Positions 31,474 through 40,116 of a DNA stretch of 64,000 nucleotides are shown here, piece after piece. Where the stretch lies: positions 1 to 64,000 of the forward strand of contig NZ_VOUA01000013.1 in assembly GCF_024372725.1 (NCBI RefSeq), written 5' to 3'. How positions within the stretch are numbered: position 1 is the first letter of the stretch; the number at the start of each line of letters is the position of its first letter. The DNA comes from Methanosarcina sp. KYL-1 (lineage in GTDB: Archaea; Halobacteriota; Methanosarcinia; Methanosarcinales; Methanosarcinaceae). A model generated the notes under the pieces. That model did not search any database, was not told where the DNA came from, and saw only the letters and a list, made by a program, of their open reading frames with translations. The translations under genes were made by a program, and so were the position numbers.

Positions 31474-31573
31474 AATTGGAACTAGTTGGAACTAATTGGA
31501 ACTAGTTGGAACTAATTGGAACTAGTTGGAACTAATTGGAACTAATTGGAACTAATTGGAACTAATTGGAAAT
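31474..31573. repeat. 10-bp tandem repeat, 10 units
   Basis: AATTGGAACT and AGTTGGAACT alternate at first, then only the AATT form occurs. The array ends about 30 bp before the next start codon, so it occupies the likely promoter or leader of the gene at 31603. Confidence 0.93.
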
Positions 31574-31602
31574 AACTGTAAACAACTGTAAATAATAGCT
31601 AA

Positions 31603-32067
31603 ATGAATCATAATGCTATAGAACCAGTACCAGCTGCAGAGTTATGCAGAGATAACATGATAACGATAAACGATGCTTTTCAGAATTTTTTAAGTGAACA
31701 GGAAGGTTCTTTGAAACCCGATACCTACCTGGACTATGAAGATGTGATTTCCCTTTTCGAGGAGTTCCTGGATGCCTGTGCCGACGACTACCTGTCGCGG
31801 GAAGACAGGTCTCTTTACGAGGCTCGGCGCAAGCAGGAAAATAAAGAGTACTGCGGGACTTTCGACCCTGAGCACATCGGGCTCCACGAAATCGAAGATT
31901 TCCTCGATGACTATCTGGTCGAGATCGGAGGAGGCAAAAAGTTCATCGGGACAGCTTCGCGGGTCCTGAACAGGTTTTTTGAATGGGCGCACGAGAAGGA
32001 GTATATCAGCCAGGAAGCTTTTGAAGAAAATACTGGTTTTCTCCGGAAATATAAGAAAAGGTATTGA
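31603..32067 (+). CDS. Small integrase-SAM-like domain protein, copy 1
   Basis: A 154-residue acidic protein, first of three tandem relatives. The core resembles the N-terminal core-binding (SAM-like) domain of tyrosine recombinases: FLSEQEGSLKPDTYLDYEDV at the start and ASRVLNRFFEWAHEKEYI at the end. There is no catalytic domain (no R-H-R-Y residues), so it is not a recombinase. A conserved insert YLSREDRSLYEARRKQENKEYC is shared with copy 2. It may bind DNA or protein; no function can be assigned. ATG 31603 has no clear ribosome site; an internal ATG at 31657 is an alternative. Confidence 0.75.
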   Translation: MNHNAIEPVPAAELCRDNMITINDAFQNFLSEQEGSLKPDTYLDYEDVISLFEEFLDACADDYLSREDRSLYEARRKQENKEYCGTFDPEHIGLHEIEDFLDDYLVEIGGGKKFIGTASRVLNRFFEWAHEKEYISQEAFEENTGFLRKYKKRY

Positions 32068-32183: not shown

Positions 32184-32669
32184 TTGAAAACTTCCAAAAA
32201 TCAGGAAAATCCTGAAAAACCGGAAACCCAATTACCCTATAGAACTGCTATGAAGACGATAAAAGAAGCTTTCAACGAATTTCTAAAAGAACAGAAAGAC
32301 GGCGTCAGCTCCAGGACTCATCGGGACTATGAAGATTTAATCTCGCTTTTCGAGGAATATCTTGATGTTTGTGCCCCTGACGATCTCTATGAAGAAGACA
32401 AGAAACTCTACGAAGAGAAGCAGAAGAACGAGCATAAAGAATACTGCCAGATTTTTGACCTTGCGTACATCTCCGATTATGACATCGAATACCTCCTTGA
32501 GGATTATCTGATTAATGATGTTGGGGAGAGTGCAACTTTTATTGAAACCTCAAGGCGTTTTTTCCGCAAATTCCTGCCCTGGGCTCATGAAAAAGGTTAC
32601 GTTGAGCCTGAACATTATGGTGAACTTGCTGATGTCGTGGGAGGACTCAAAGGGAAAAAGTTTGAATGA
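32184..32669 (+). CDS. Small integrase-SAM-like domain protein, copy 2
   Basis: A 161-residue relative of the preceding gene. The order is AFNEFLKEQKDGVSSRTH, DYEDLISLFEEYLDVCAPDD, a charged insert with NEHKEYCQIFDLAYISDYDIE, and RRFFRKFLPWAHEKGYVEPE. TTG 32184 was chosen because AGAGGT lies seven bases before it and because its first residues (LKTSK) match the start of copy 3; an ATG at 32250 would give 139 residues. The open frame continues upstream to 32064 through a T-rich stretch that is probably not translated. Function is unknown. Confidence 0.72.
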   Translation: MKTSKNQENPEKPETQLPYRTAMKTIKEAFNEFLKEQKDGVSSRTHRDYEDLISLFEEYLDVCAPDDLYEEDKKLYEEKQKNEHKEYCQIFDLAYISDYDIEYLLEDYLINDVGESATFIETSRRFFRKFLPWAHEKGYVEPEHYGELADVVGGLKGKKFE

Positions 32670-32681
32670 AAAGGAGGCAGT

Positions 32682-33196
32682 ATGAACCCAAAACCCCTAA
32701 AAACCTCTAAAACCACAAACACCGCTAAAACAATTCAGGAAATTTTGGAGGAATTCCTGGCCGAGCAAAAACAAAACCTGAAGCCGCAGTCCTATTAGGG
32801 ATACGAAACTGCGATGAGCTATTTTGAGCGTTTCCTCGAAGTCTACGGTTCCGAGTACCTGACAGAGAAAGACCTTGAGCGGCATGAGAAGCTCTCCGAA
32901 AATGGCAGGGCTTTGGTGAATACCTGGATTTCAGGGGACTTAGGAAGCCCACGACCGTTGAAAAACTTCAGGCTTTTGCCGAATATCTGGAGTTTGGAGC
33001 TTTTCCAAGGGTTGTGCTGGAGCAGGACAAGGGTTTAAAAGACGAAAATACCCGGAAAAGAGAAGTCCGGGGTCTTGTCGAGGCTCTGGATGCTTACGGG
33101 TTGAAGGAAGGGTTCATAATCACTGAAAATGAACGTGAGACCTTCCTGATTGATGATAAGAAGATAACAGTTGTTCCTGCCTTCGACTGGCTGTAA
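32682..33196 (+). pseudogene. Broken third copy: SAM-like N-terminus with in-frame TAG, joined to an ATPase C-terminal fragment
   Basis: A perfect ribosome site (AAGGAGG) precedes ATG 32682. The frame gives MNPKPLKTSK ... FLAEQKQNLKPQSY, matching copies 1 and 2, then meets TAG at 32796-32798. The same frame resumes as GYETAMSYFERFLEVYGSEYL, again matching the relatives, to about 32900. From about 32912 a different frame encodes FGEYLDFRGLRKPTT, AFAEYLEFGAFPRVV and EALDAYGLKEGFIIT ... VVPAFDWL. That looks like the C-terminus of archaeal AAA/DUF4143-type ATPases. So the gene is a chimera: an amber codon plus a junction with a frameshift. In a pyrrolysine-using methanogen the TAG alone might be read through, but the junction would still truncate the protein. 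Confidence 0.7.
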
Positions 33197-35463: not shown

Positions 35464-36501
35464 ATGCATGACATCACTTTTATCGACGGAGGCAGCCTCC
35501 CCACCCCTGTGGGTGTGACAAGGGAATGGGTGAAAGCTGCAGCGGAAAACCGGAACGAGGACGAAAAACTCTTTTCCTTAATGAGGGAAGCTTTCCGGAA
35601 AAAAATCGATGTTGGGGTTCACGTCCCTACCTATCCCCAGTTCCGGGACATGATCGGGCAGTTCCTGGACATCATCAAGGACGAAAAGAACTGCTATGAA
35701 CCCTACGTATTAAAAGAAGAAAACGCGAAGATTCTGGAACTTGAGGTTATCGATGAGGTTGCAAAGCTGTATAAAGAGGAGACGGGCGAAACCCTCGAAG
35801 TGCGGGTTTGTGTGGCAGGCCCTACCGACCTCTACCTCCAGGCTTTCGGGGCAACGGCTTTTCGGGATGCCTACCACATCCTGGCGCTGGACCTCGAGAG
35901 TTTCATAATTCAGGCGTTTAAAACCGCAAAGAACTTCAAAATAAAGGTCGTGGCCCTGGACGAGCCTAGCCTCGGGATGAACGACAGGATCCAGTTTTTT
36001 GATCCTGACATCGTCTCTGCGCTCACCCTGGCTTCCACCTATGCCCGGAAGCAGGGGGCCGATGTCGAGATCCACCTCCACTCCCCGCTGAAGTACGAGA
36101 TCGTCTGCGAGACTCCCATCAACGTGATAGGGGTAGAGTACGCGGCAACTCCCTCTTACCTGGACCTCTTTGACAGAAAAGTGCTTGAAGACTCCGATAC
36201 CTTTGTTAGGCTAGGGGTTTCCAGGACCGACATTGGCAACCTCATAGGCACGGTCAACGAGACATACGATGTCAACGCCTGGAAGGAAACGGCGTACATG
36301 CAAAAGATTGTCACGGACATGGAAACCCCGGAAACCGTAACGAAGCGGCTTGAAAAAGCTTATGCTGTCCTCGGAGACCGGATAAAGTACGCAAGTCCTG
36401 ACTGCGGGCTGGCTTTCTGGCCGGACCAGGACCTCGCTTTTGCGCTCCTTGAAAACACAGCAAAGGGCATCAATGCATTCAATGCGGAAAAAAAGGACTG
36501 A
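35464..36501 (+). CDS. Core-MetE-like corrinoid- or methyl-donor-dependent methyltransferase, copy 1
   Basis: The 345-residue protein is the catalytic half of cobalamin-independent methionine synthase without its N-terminal folate domain, as in archaeal folate-independent methionine synthases that take methyl from methylcobamide proteins. The MetE zinc-site pattern is visible as HLHSP (His204, His206), GVEYAAT (Glu225) and SPDCGLAFWP (Cys314). Compared with the usual H-x-C...E...C set, the first cysteine is a histidine. VRVCVAGPTDLYLQ and VALDEPSLG are other family segments. A near copy follows at 36783. Substrate (homocysteine or another thiol) is not certain. Confidence 0.75.
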   Translation: MHDITFIDGGSLPTPVGVTREWVKAAAENRNEDEKLFSLMREAFRKKIDVGVHVPTYPQFRDMIGQFLDIIKDEKNCYEPYVLKEENAKILELEVIDEVAKLYKEETGETLEVRVCVAGPTDLYLQAFGATAFRDAYHILALDLESFIIQAFKTAKNFKIKVVALDEPSLGMNDRIQFFDPDIVSALTLASTYARKQGADVEIHLHSPLKYEIVCETPINVIGVEYAATPSYLDLFDRKVLEDSDTFVRLGVSRTDIGNLIGTVNETYDVNAWKETAYMQKIVTDMETPETVTKRLEKAYAVLGDRIKYASPDCGLAFWPDQDLAFALLENTAKGINAFNAEKKD

Positions 36502-36578
36502 GGGCGGAATATTTTTCCTTTCCCTGTCTATTTTTTCTGTCTGCTTCTTTCTATCTGTTTCTTTTCGCCTGTTTTTTT

Positions 36579-36643
36579 CTGTCTGTTTCTTCTGTCTGCT
36601 TCTTCTGTCTGCTTCTTCTGTCTATTTCTTCTGTCTATTTCTT
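36579..36643. repeat. 13-bp tandem repeat, 5 units
   Basis: CTGTCTGTTTCTT, CTGTCTGCTTCTT (twice) and CTGTCTATTTCTT (twice) in tandem, preceded by looser T/C-rich copies from about 36517. It fills the spacer between the two methyltransferase genes. Confidence 0.9.
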
Positions 36644-36782
36644 TATTTTTTGTTCCCTCTTCTTATCTTTTTTACAACCTTTGCCCCTTATCTGTTTTTC
36701 ATCGTTATTCTGACCCATCTATTTTTTTATAATAATACAGTCTTTCCAATAATGCTAAATTCTTGCAGGTCTACTAGGATGC

Positions 36783-37817
36783 ATGGAAGAAATCCTCTTT
36801 GACGATATCGGTAGCTATCCCCTCCCTGACGGTGTCAGCAAGGAATGGGTCCGAAATGCCTTTAAAACGAGAGAAGAAGACGAGAAACTCTTTACGGTTA
36901 TCAATGACGCCTTCCAGCAGAAAATCGATTCAGGGGTCCAGGTCCCTACTTATCCCCAGTACCAGGACATGAACGGGCAGTTCCTGAAGGTCATCAGGGA
37001 CGAAAACTGCTGTGAGAGCCCCTTTGAAGTGAAGCTCGAGTGCGCCAGGATCGAAGAGCTTGAGGCCATAGAAAGCGTTGCAAAGGCCTATAAGGAAAAG
37101 TTCGGGGAGACCCTTAAGGTCCGGATCTGTGTTACCGGTCCGACAGAACTCTACCTCAAAGAGTTCGGGGGTACACACTATACGGACATCTACTCTCTTT
37201 TTGGGAAAAGTGTGAACAAATTTGTCCGGAACTCCATGAAAGCTGCAAAACACTTCAAGATCGCCACGGTCTCCATTGACGAGCCAAGCATCGGGTTAAA
37301 CCCGGAACTTGCTTTCGGGGAAGACGAAATCATTTCCGCCCTGACCGAAAGCTCAAAAGCTGCAAGCAAGTGGGGAGCTGACGTGGAAATCCACCTCCAT
37401 TCCGCGCTCTACTACAACCTGGCATGCGAAACGCCGACCATCAACGTGATCGGGATGGAGTCTGCGGGCACGCCTTCCTACATGGACCTCATAGACAAAA
37501 AAGTGCTTGAAGATACGGATTCTTTCCTGCGGGTGGGAATTGCAAGGACCGACATCTACACCCTGGCAGGGATCCTTAACGAGAAGTACTGCACAAATGT
37601 CTGGAAAGAGCCGCAGTACCTCCCGGAAATCGTCACGGAACTGGAAACCCCTGCAGTCATCGCAAAGAGGCTCAGGATCGCTTACAGGCGCTTCGGAAAC
37701 CTGATTAAGTACGTCGGCCCGGACTGCGGCCTGGGTTCCTGGCCGAACCAGAGGATAGCCTTCATGCTGCTTTCCAACGTGGCCCAGGGGATCAAGGATT
37801 TCAGGGAAAGCCTCTGA
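36783..37817 (+). CDS. Core-MetE-like methyltransferase, copy 2
   Basis: A 344-residue relative of the gene 280 bp upstream, alignable along its whole length. It opens with DDIGSYPLPDGVSKEWV, where copy 1 has a degenerate version, and keeps the same zinc-site set: HLHSA (His204, His206), GMESAGT (Glu226) and GPDCGLGSWP (Cys315). Both copies share the H-x-H form, so this is a subfamily trait rather than an error. The pair came from tandem duplication followed by considerable divergence, which suggests distinct substrates or partner corrinoid proteins. No corrinoid-binding protein gene lies in the window. Confidence 0.75.
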   Translation: MEEILFDDIGSYPLPDGVSKEWVRNAFKTREEDEKLFTVINDAFQQKIDSGVQVPTYPQYQDMNGQFLKVIRDENCCESPFEVKLECARIEELEAIESVAKAYKEKFGETLKVRICVTGPTELYLKEFGGTHYTDIYSLFGKSVNKFVRNSMKAAKHFKIATVSIDEPSIGLNPELAFGEDEIISALTESSKAASKWGADVEIHLHSALYYNLACETPTINVIGMESAGTPSYMDLIDKKVLEDTDSFLRVGIARTDIYTLAGILNEKYCTNVWKEPQYLPEIVTELETPAVIAKRLRIAYRRFGNLIKYVGPDCGLGSWPNQRIAFMLLSNVAQGIKDFRESL

Positions 37818-38594: not shown

Positions 38595-39149
38595 ACGCTT
38601 TGTTTTCCAATTGAATGAGCGACTCTCATAATGTATTTCCAGTATTTATAGTTTTCGCCAGAGGGGGCGGAAATTTTCATTCTTTTTGTTTTCCTCTGTT
38701 ATTATTTCCTATTTTTGCCCGGATTTTCTCCAACTGTTTATAAAAAATTTATTCTATATATAAAAAAATTATTTATTTTCTTGAAAAAATCTATTTTTCT
38801 TCTTAAGATTTTATTTACCAGACGACTGAATATTTTTCTTAAGTTGGATGTGGAACACCGGAGCGCGTAGCCCTGAATTTTTGCCCAACTTTTAAAATTT
38901 CCTTTTTTAAGTGGGTTTTAAAGCAAAACGTTATATACAAGTGAATCTGATTATGACCAGTTAATTGACTTATCCGAAGCTCTGTTGGGGATCAGTTAAT
39001 AAAAGTAAGTAGAAGGTGTACTTTAACTTATTAGAAGTTTACTTCCTAAATTTGATTTTTCAAGTTTGGTTTGTTAAGTACTGTTTTTACACTTTTCTGG
39101 CTCATAGGGCTTTTTAAGTTGGTTAATAGAATTTAAAGGAATGAATGTA
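38595..39149. other. Intergenic region with tRNA and TRAM promoters
   Basis: About 550 bp. The left part should hold the tRNA-Lys promoter (minus), the right part the promoter and long leader of the TRAM cluster (plus). No gene seen. Confidence 0.55.
38931..38938 (+). promoter_or_regulatory. TATA box of the TRAM gene cluster
   Basis: TTATATAC preceded by the purine-rich AAAGCAAAACG forms a good archaeal promoter. Transcription would start near 38962, leaving a leader of about 190 nt before the first TRAM start codon. Long leaders of this kind are common for RNA-chaperone genes, which supports post-transcriptional control as an inference. Confidence 0.5.
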
Positions 39150-39356
39150 ATGTTTAAACAAGATAATGTTTCTGTTCCCGTCGAAGAGGGCGAAGTCTAC
39201 GATGTAACAATCCAGGACATTGCACGCCAGGGCGACGGCATTGCCCGTATTGAAGGTTTTGTAGTCTTTGTCCCTAACACCAGTGTTGGCGACGAAGTTC
39301 AGATTAAGGTTGAAAGAGTACTTCCCAAATTTGCATTTGCAAGCATTGTCGAGTAA
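39150..39356 (+). CDS. TRAM-domain protein, copy 1
   Basis: A 68-residue protein consisting of a single TRAM domain, a small beta-barrel that binds RNA; methanogen members have been described as cold-induced RNA chaperones. Core motifs are GEVYDVTIQDIARQGDGIAR and FVPNTSVGDEVQIKVERVLP. The GGA ribosome site abuts an upstream ATG (39141) and so suits only the ATG at 39150, nine bases further on; all four copies share this arrangement. It is the first of four tandem copies with near-identical spacers. Confidence 0.92.
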   Translation: MFKQDNVSVPVEEGEVYDVTIQDIARQGDGIARIEGFVVFVPNTSVGDEVQIKVERVLPKFAFASIVE

Positions 39357-39406
39357 GTGCGGATTTAAGAAAATTAAGTAATTGATAAATTAAAGGAATG
39401 GTTTTT

Positions 39407-39613
39407 ATGTTCAGAGATGAAAGTCGCTCTGTGCCCGTCGAAGAGGGTGAAGTCTACGATGTAACAATCCAGGACATTGCTCGCCAGGGAGACGGCATTG
39501 CCCGTATTGAAGGTTTTGTAGTCTTTGTCCCTAACACCAGTGTTGGCGACGAAGTTCAGATTAAGGTCGAAAGAGTACTTCCCAAATTTGCATTTGCAAG
39601 CGTTGTCGAGTAA
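39407..39613 (+). CDS. TRAM-domain protein, copy 2
   Basis: 68 residues. It is nearly identical at DNA level to copy 1 from GTGCCCGTCGAAGAGG onward, and differs mainly in the N-terminal MFRDESRS. The spacer to the next copy is almost the same sequence as the spacer before it (GCGGATTTAAGAAAATTAAG). RNA-binding residues of the TRAM barrel are unchanged. The start is assigned by the shared GGA-N9-ATG layout. Confidence 0.92.
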   Translation: MFRDESRSVPVEEGEVYDVTIQDIARQGDGIARIEGFVVFVPNTSVGDEVQIKVERVLPKFAFASVVE

Positions 39614-39664
39614 ATGCGGATTTAAGAAAATTAAGTTAATTGATATATTAGAGGAATGGTTTTT

Positions 39665-39874
39665 ATGTTCAGAGATGAAAGTCGCTCTGTGCCCATCGAA
39701 GAGGGCGAAGTTTACGAGGTTACGATTCAGGATATTGCTCGCCAGGGAGACGGCATCGCCCGTATCGAAGGCTTTGTTATTTTTGTCCCGGGCACCAAAG
39801 TCGGCGATGAGGTCCGGATTAAAGTCGAAAGAGTCCTCCCCAAGTTTGCATTTGCAAGCGTTGTAGAAGATTAA
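39665..39874 (+). CDS. TRAM-domain protein, copy 3
   Basis: 69 residues. It is more diverged than copies 1 and 2: VYEVTIQDI, FVIFVPGTKVGDEVRIKVERV, and an extra C-terminal Asp. The VPGTKVGDEVRI version is shared with copy 4, so copies 1-2 and 3-4 form two pairs in this loop. Single TRAM domain, probably RNA-binding. Confidence 0.92.
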   Translation: MFRDESRSVPIEEGEVYEVTIQDIARQGDGIARIEGFVIFVPGTKVGDEVRIKVERVLPKFAFASVVED

Positions 39875-39909
39875 GTGTTAAGGGAAACCAATAACTTGGA
39901 ATGGTTTTT

Positions 39910-40116
39910 ATGTTCAAAGATGAAAGTCGCTCTGTCCCTATCGAAGAAGGCGAAGTCTACGATGTAACAATCCAGGACATTGCCCGCCAGGGAGACGGCA
40001 TCGCCCGTATTGAAGGCTTCGTGGTCTTTGTCCCGGGCACCAAAGTTGGTGACGAAGTCCGGATTAAGATCGAAAGAGTACTTCCCAAGTACGGTTTTGC
40101 CAGCGTCGTTGAGTGA
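39910..40116 (+). CDS. TRAM-domain protein, copy 4
   Basis: 68 residues, MFKDESRSVPIEEGE start, IKIERVLPKYGFASVVE end. The spacer before it is shorter and unrelated to the first two spacers, apart from the GGAATGGTTTTTATG start context. It is the last copy; T-rich repeats follow. A single TRAM barrel, probably RNA-binding. Confidence 0.92.
   Translation: MFKDESRSVPIEEGEVYDVTIQDIARQGDGIARIEGFVVFVPGTKVGDEVRIKIERVLPKYGFASVVE

Follow-up and report, generated by a model that had tools for sequence, protein, structure and literature searches.

The third of three tandem genes downstream of argS in Methanosarcina sp. KYL-1 carries an in-frame UAG, a codon that Methanosarcina species read as pyrrolysine, and the locus thus raises the question of whether this gene yields a new pyrrolysine protein or is simply decaying. 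We analyzed it within a stretch of 64,000 nucleotides (positions 1 to 64,000 of contig NZ_VOUA01000013.1, hereafter the window) from a draft genome of 4.04 Mb in 66 contigs. The reading that best explains the data, to which we give a probability of about 0.93, is that the tandem array, which encodes proteins resembling recombinase core-binding domains, is collapsing, that its third gene has become a pseudogene, and that the TAG in this gene is a nonsense mutation.

The argS-linked array

In Methanosarcina, argS is followed by a gene that we call g1 and then by up to three paralogues, B, C and D, with full-length versions of 237, 231 and 236 codons, respectively. The three genes of the window belong to this tandem family (Table 1). 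No same-species strain was found for allele comparison, and the contig scan gave ten other Methanosarcina genomes. Genomes of relatives are cited here by their handles (G0xx). In the argS-linked loci of relatives g1 is conserved, lying directly after argS in every locus compared with 59-63% identity to the window copy, while B, C and D are intact, truncated or lost depending on the genome. The dN/dS values for g1 of the window against that of G014 are 0.25/1.35. The second gene of the window is of type B and lacks the C-terminal domain of about 100 residues that full-length B possesses; B of G044 is also truncated, close to where the window copy ends. A search of the KYL-1 genome found no full-length member of the family, and type D had no match in a plasmid collection. 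Immediately 5' of g1, at 31476-31575, the window contains about ten head-to-tail copies of a unit of about 10 bp (GGAACTAATT/GGAACTAGTT).

Table 1. Coordinates in the window of the tandem array and of the parts of the third gene.
Feature	Position	Strand	Description
g1	31657..32067	+	Conserved 136-aa stand-alone protein, resembles an integrase core-binding (SAM-like) domain; the ORF possibly begins at 31603
Second gene, type B	32250..32669	+	Open but truncated: 139 codons, where full-length B of other species has 237
Shine-Dalgarno sequence GGAGG	32673..32677	+	4 nt before ATG 32682
Third gene, type-C-like 5' part	32682..32767	+	C-to-D switch within the shared GAATTCCTGGCCGAGCA stretch, 32751-32767
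Third gene, type-D-like part	32766..32909	+	Covers only the N-terminal portion of the helical domain; 83% identical in DNA to D of G015
In-frame TAG	32796..32798	+	Codon 39; Ser in D and C of G015 and G014
AAA_14/DUF4143 remnant 1	32912..33046	+	Matches approximately residues 177-228 of an ATPase of 444 aa; +3 frame; start of remnant 2 overlaps
AAA_14/DUF4143 remnant 2	33035..33196	+	C-terminal end, about residues 387-439, plus stop TAA

Composition of the third gene

The ribosome-binding site, the ATG and the in-frame TAG are all present, as the original prediction had described. To assign parents to the third gene we compared ungapped 15-base blocks of the window with C and D of relatives. 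The block 32751-32765 is identical to C of G015 at 15/15 positions, and the following one (32766-32780) matches D of G015 at 15/15 positions against 5/15 for C. The window is thus nearest to type C up to 32765 and to type D after it, which makes the third gene a C/D hybrid. The switch lies inside a stretch that the two types have in common, which is what recombination between tandem paralogues would be expected to leave. The homology to D stops at ...GAAAATGGCAGG (32909), after about 30% of the length of D and inside the helical domain. It persists for 37 codons 3' of the TAG. On either side of this codon the sequence is homologous to the two upstream genes, as predicted, and to relatives (E value of 4.9e-23 for the segment around the TAG against the type-D gene of a relative). 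Past codon 76 the gene consists of out-of-frame ATPase sequence, and the frame change that had been expected near 32900-32912 is located at 32909/32912. The reading frame of the third gene ends at the TAA 33036-33038. The end proposed for a readthrough product, 33038, is thus correct; its length is 118 codons and not about 110, compared with 236 for D of G015.

The ATPase homology starts at 32912 (FGEYL...), in another frame than the D-like part. This +3 frame stays open for 101-102 codons, to the TAA at 33194-33196, and its best match to ATPase C-termini outside its own locus has an E value of 4e-12. Both pieces align in order to one 444-aa paralogue of the same genome, in which AAA_14 spans residues 47-181 and DUF4143 residues 240-385; each alignment covers 45-53 residues with 33-45% identity. 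Because only the two stretches given in Table 1 are matched, the Walker half and about 158 middle residues are missing: the residues of the paralogue before about 177 are absent and the fragment contains no Walker A/B domain. The likeness to AAA_14/DUF4143 ATPases therefore consists of two in-order aligned stretches, whereas neither the Walker A/B half nor an intact DUF4143 domain is left, only remnants. The ATPase family foreseen in the original prediction was the right one, but the sequence comes as two separated pieces and is not simply a C-terminus. Likewise, both of the parents named there are supported, but the parents number three because the SAM-like part is itself C plus D. The KYL-1 genome contains several copies of this ATPase family, and stop-bearing remnants of it are present in other Methanosarcina genomes. 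The argS-g1 locus of other species yielded no ATPase piece, and the fusion to the ATPase is absent from every relative examined.

What the DNA of the third gene shows is a hybrid of types C and D, cut at about 30% of D and followed by two non-adjacent, out-of-frame pieces of an ATPase gene. We consider it very unlikely that the TAG or the junction results from a sequencing or assembly error. Although a draft genome in 66 contigs may contain errors, wrong bases cannot join two gene families and remove about 158 internal ATPase residues, and the gene would be truncated even if the base at the TAG were wrong.

Protein family and predicted fold

Over the first ~120 residues the similarity to the integrase SAM-like/core-binding domains PF13102, PF14659 and PF02899 is weak and sub-threshold, the best Pfam SAM-like score being 20 bits, below the cut-off of 22.6. 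A weak sequence match was also obtained with the N-terminal domain of the prophage pi2 integrase 3lys (E value of 0.036). The AlphaFold2 model of D of G015 (mean pLDDT of 89.8) predicts an all-helical N-terminal domain followed by a C-terminal beta domain. In fold searches this model had weak matches to 3nrw (probability of 0.99) and 3lys (0.96), with a target TM of about 0.68 and E values of 0.09-0.28. The C-terminal beta domain weakly resembles OB-fold proteins (eIF5A, S1 domains and CusF). Nothing was found at E <= 0.001 with the whole protein, and the resemblance is at the level of the domains only. The similarity to the core-binding N-terminal domain of tyrosine recombinases and phage integrases is thus made of a sub-threshold profile together with weak sequence and fold matches. 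Unlike tyrosine recombinases, the array proteins have no catalytic domain, and the full-length ones bear the C-terminal beta domain instead. From the core-binding resemblance we infer that the array proteins may bind DNA.

The in-frame UAG and pyrrolysine

At the position of the TAG the relatives encode serine, with TCG in D of G015 and TCA in D of G014, and C of both genomes has serine as well; a single base separates TCG from TAG. A TAG is thus not conserved at this site, and none of the family members examined has one there. A conserved UAG was ruled out, since G015 has serine and the other lone TAGs, in G014 and G010, are at different positions. A PYLIS-like structure was also ruled out because the 105 nucleotides from the TAG fold worse than shuffled sequences (z of +1.63). 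Such an element is not strictly required (PMC2933860).

The KYL-1 genome encodes pylS (416 bits for the C-terminal family TIGR02367), and a UAG placed in a foreign reporter has an apparent readthrough of 20-30% in M. acetivorans (PMC2933860), which makes some low-level readthrough of the third gene plausible if it is expressed. These two observations, with the family homology that flanks the TAG, are what would favor a functional 118-residue pyrrolysine protein, but serine occupies the site in G015, no examined member carries a TAG there, no structure lies downstream, the helical domain is cut and the sequence after codon 76 is out-of-frame ATPase. The comparison with orthologues that the original prediction had proposed as a check yielded in G015 a gene of 236 codons with the serine codon TCG, and this counts against pyrrolysine. 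We regard a functional readthrough protein as exceedingly improbable. The product, if made, would likely be a 118-aa chimera cut inside the helical domain, with an out-of-frame tail and without likely function, so that pyrrolysine would at most enter a by-product without function.

In the methylamine methyltransferases MtmB, MtbB and MttB the UAG is conserved and tied to function. The third gene shares with them the organism group and the codon, whereas its UAG is unique to one genome and has no catalytic role. A closer parallel is Thg1 of M. acetivorans, in which, according to the accounts of Heinemann et al. 2009 in PMC2933860 and PMC8211752, pyrrolysine was observed and the in-frame UAG was proposed to be neutral. 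As Thg1 is described in these accounts, both genes have the UAG in a single lineage, a sense codon in relatives and a host with a pyrrolysine system. Thg1 is however otherwise intact and active, whereas past its UAG the third gene changes frame and is cut short.

Probable decay of the third gene

The decay of a chimeric gene, which the original prediction had put forward as the likelier of two outcomes, is supported by the C/D hybrid cut short and by the out-of-frame ATPase pieces. An intact 236-codon homologue with TCG exists in G015, the array is variably broken across the genus, no full-length copy is left in the KYL-1 genome, and the window copy bears disabling lesions. On the other hand, the Shine-Dalgarno sequence and the ATG are intact, and an ATPase frame open over its whole length would be less likely in a long-dead gene. 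The dN/dS values of the D-like part against G015 (0.14/0.61 over 48 codons) point to constraint for most of its history; this indicates that inactivation came after long constraint, and either it is recent or the codons near the TAG were still in use.

We propose that recombination between C and D within the array would have produced the hybrid, and that at least one deletion or insertion would then have joined it to an ATPase gene that was probably already shrinking. With selection relaxed, the change from TCG to TAG would have gone to fixation. On a translated mRNA most ribosomes would stop after 38 residues and some might insert pyrrolysine and run to 33038. In all likelihood the internal UAG arose by chance, and a broken remnant with a chance UAG amounts to ordinary gene decay rather than to a new pyrrolysine protein. 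One false candidate can thus be struck off the lists of putative pyrrolysine proteins. It also implies that homology flanking a UAG is insufficient and that the length, frame and codon of orthologues must be checked. Beyond what had been predicted, the analysis adds the three parents, the truncated second gene and lone ambers scattered in the family.

State of the array and lone ambers in relatives

C and D are intact in G015, and G014 has intact B and C genes together with a full-length D interrupted by one internal TAG. The remaining genomes have g1 alone or g1 plus broken pieces: remnants of C were found in G002, G017 and G020, and G040 has stops in both B and C, the one in C being a lone TAA. 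G013 contains at its argS locus an independent B/D fusion (L012:5875-6772, G013:C4) with three stops, two TAG and one TAA. This fusion shows that array collapse recurs. The argS-linked family described here is thus one that has been repeatedly rearranged and lost in Methanosarcina, with its first member kept.

Lone ambers were found in two otherwise undamaged members. D of G014 (L011:5735-6451, G014:C2) is full-length, at 238 codons, with its single internal TAG 19 codons before the end, where G015 has the Lys codon AAG. In g1 of G010 (L073:4336-4743, G010:C248), from a genome only about 75% complete, the lone TAG replaces a Trp that is invariant in the alignment. These changes, Lys to TAG and Trp to TAG, together with the precedent of Thg1 as recounted in the two articles above, would fit a TAG in the third gene that is neutral and occasionally read as pyrrolysine: in a genus that tolerates ambers in weakly selected genes, lone TAGs would accumulate. 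We judge this reading unlikely, because the lone TAA in C of G040 and other stops also occur, and because the gene in the window is broken by frameshift and truncation whatever the TAG does. The broader idea behind it, that partial reading of UAG as pyrrolysine makes ambers in weakly selected Methanosarcina genes nearly neutral and lets them outlast other nonsense mutations, is likewise doubtful. Long DUF4143 ATPase matches have lone TAA, TAG and TGA stops, one each, and DDE transposases with a single stop mostly have TGA or TAA among the matches listed; in neither group is an excess of ambers visible among these matches. The lone ambers agree with the neutrality suggested for the UAG of Thg1, but they are too few for a claim. 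If the idea were true, occasional pyrrolysine proteins would come from the lone TAGs of D in G014 and g1 in G010. D of G014, full-length apart from its lone TAG, is a better candidate than the third gene for neutral incorporation of pyrrolysine.

Two other groups of adjacent paralogues are present in the window. Four near-identical tandem genes of 71-72 aa, TRAM-domain-like by eye, lie at 39141-40116, and a pair of about 345 aa (35464-36501 and 36783-37817, spanning 35464-37817) appears by eye to be MetE-like or methyltransferase-like.
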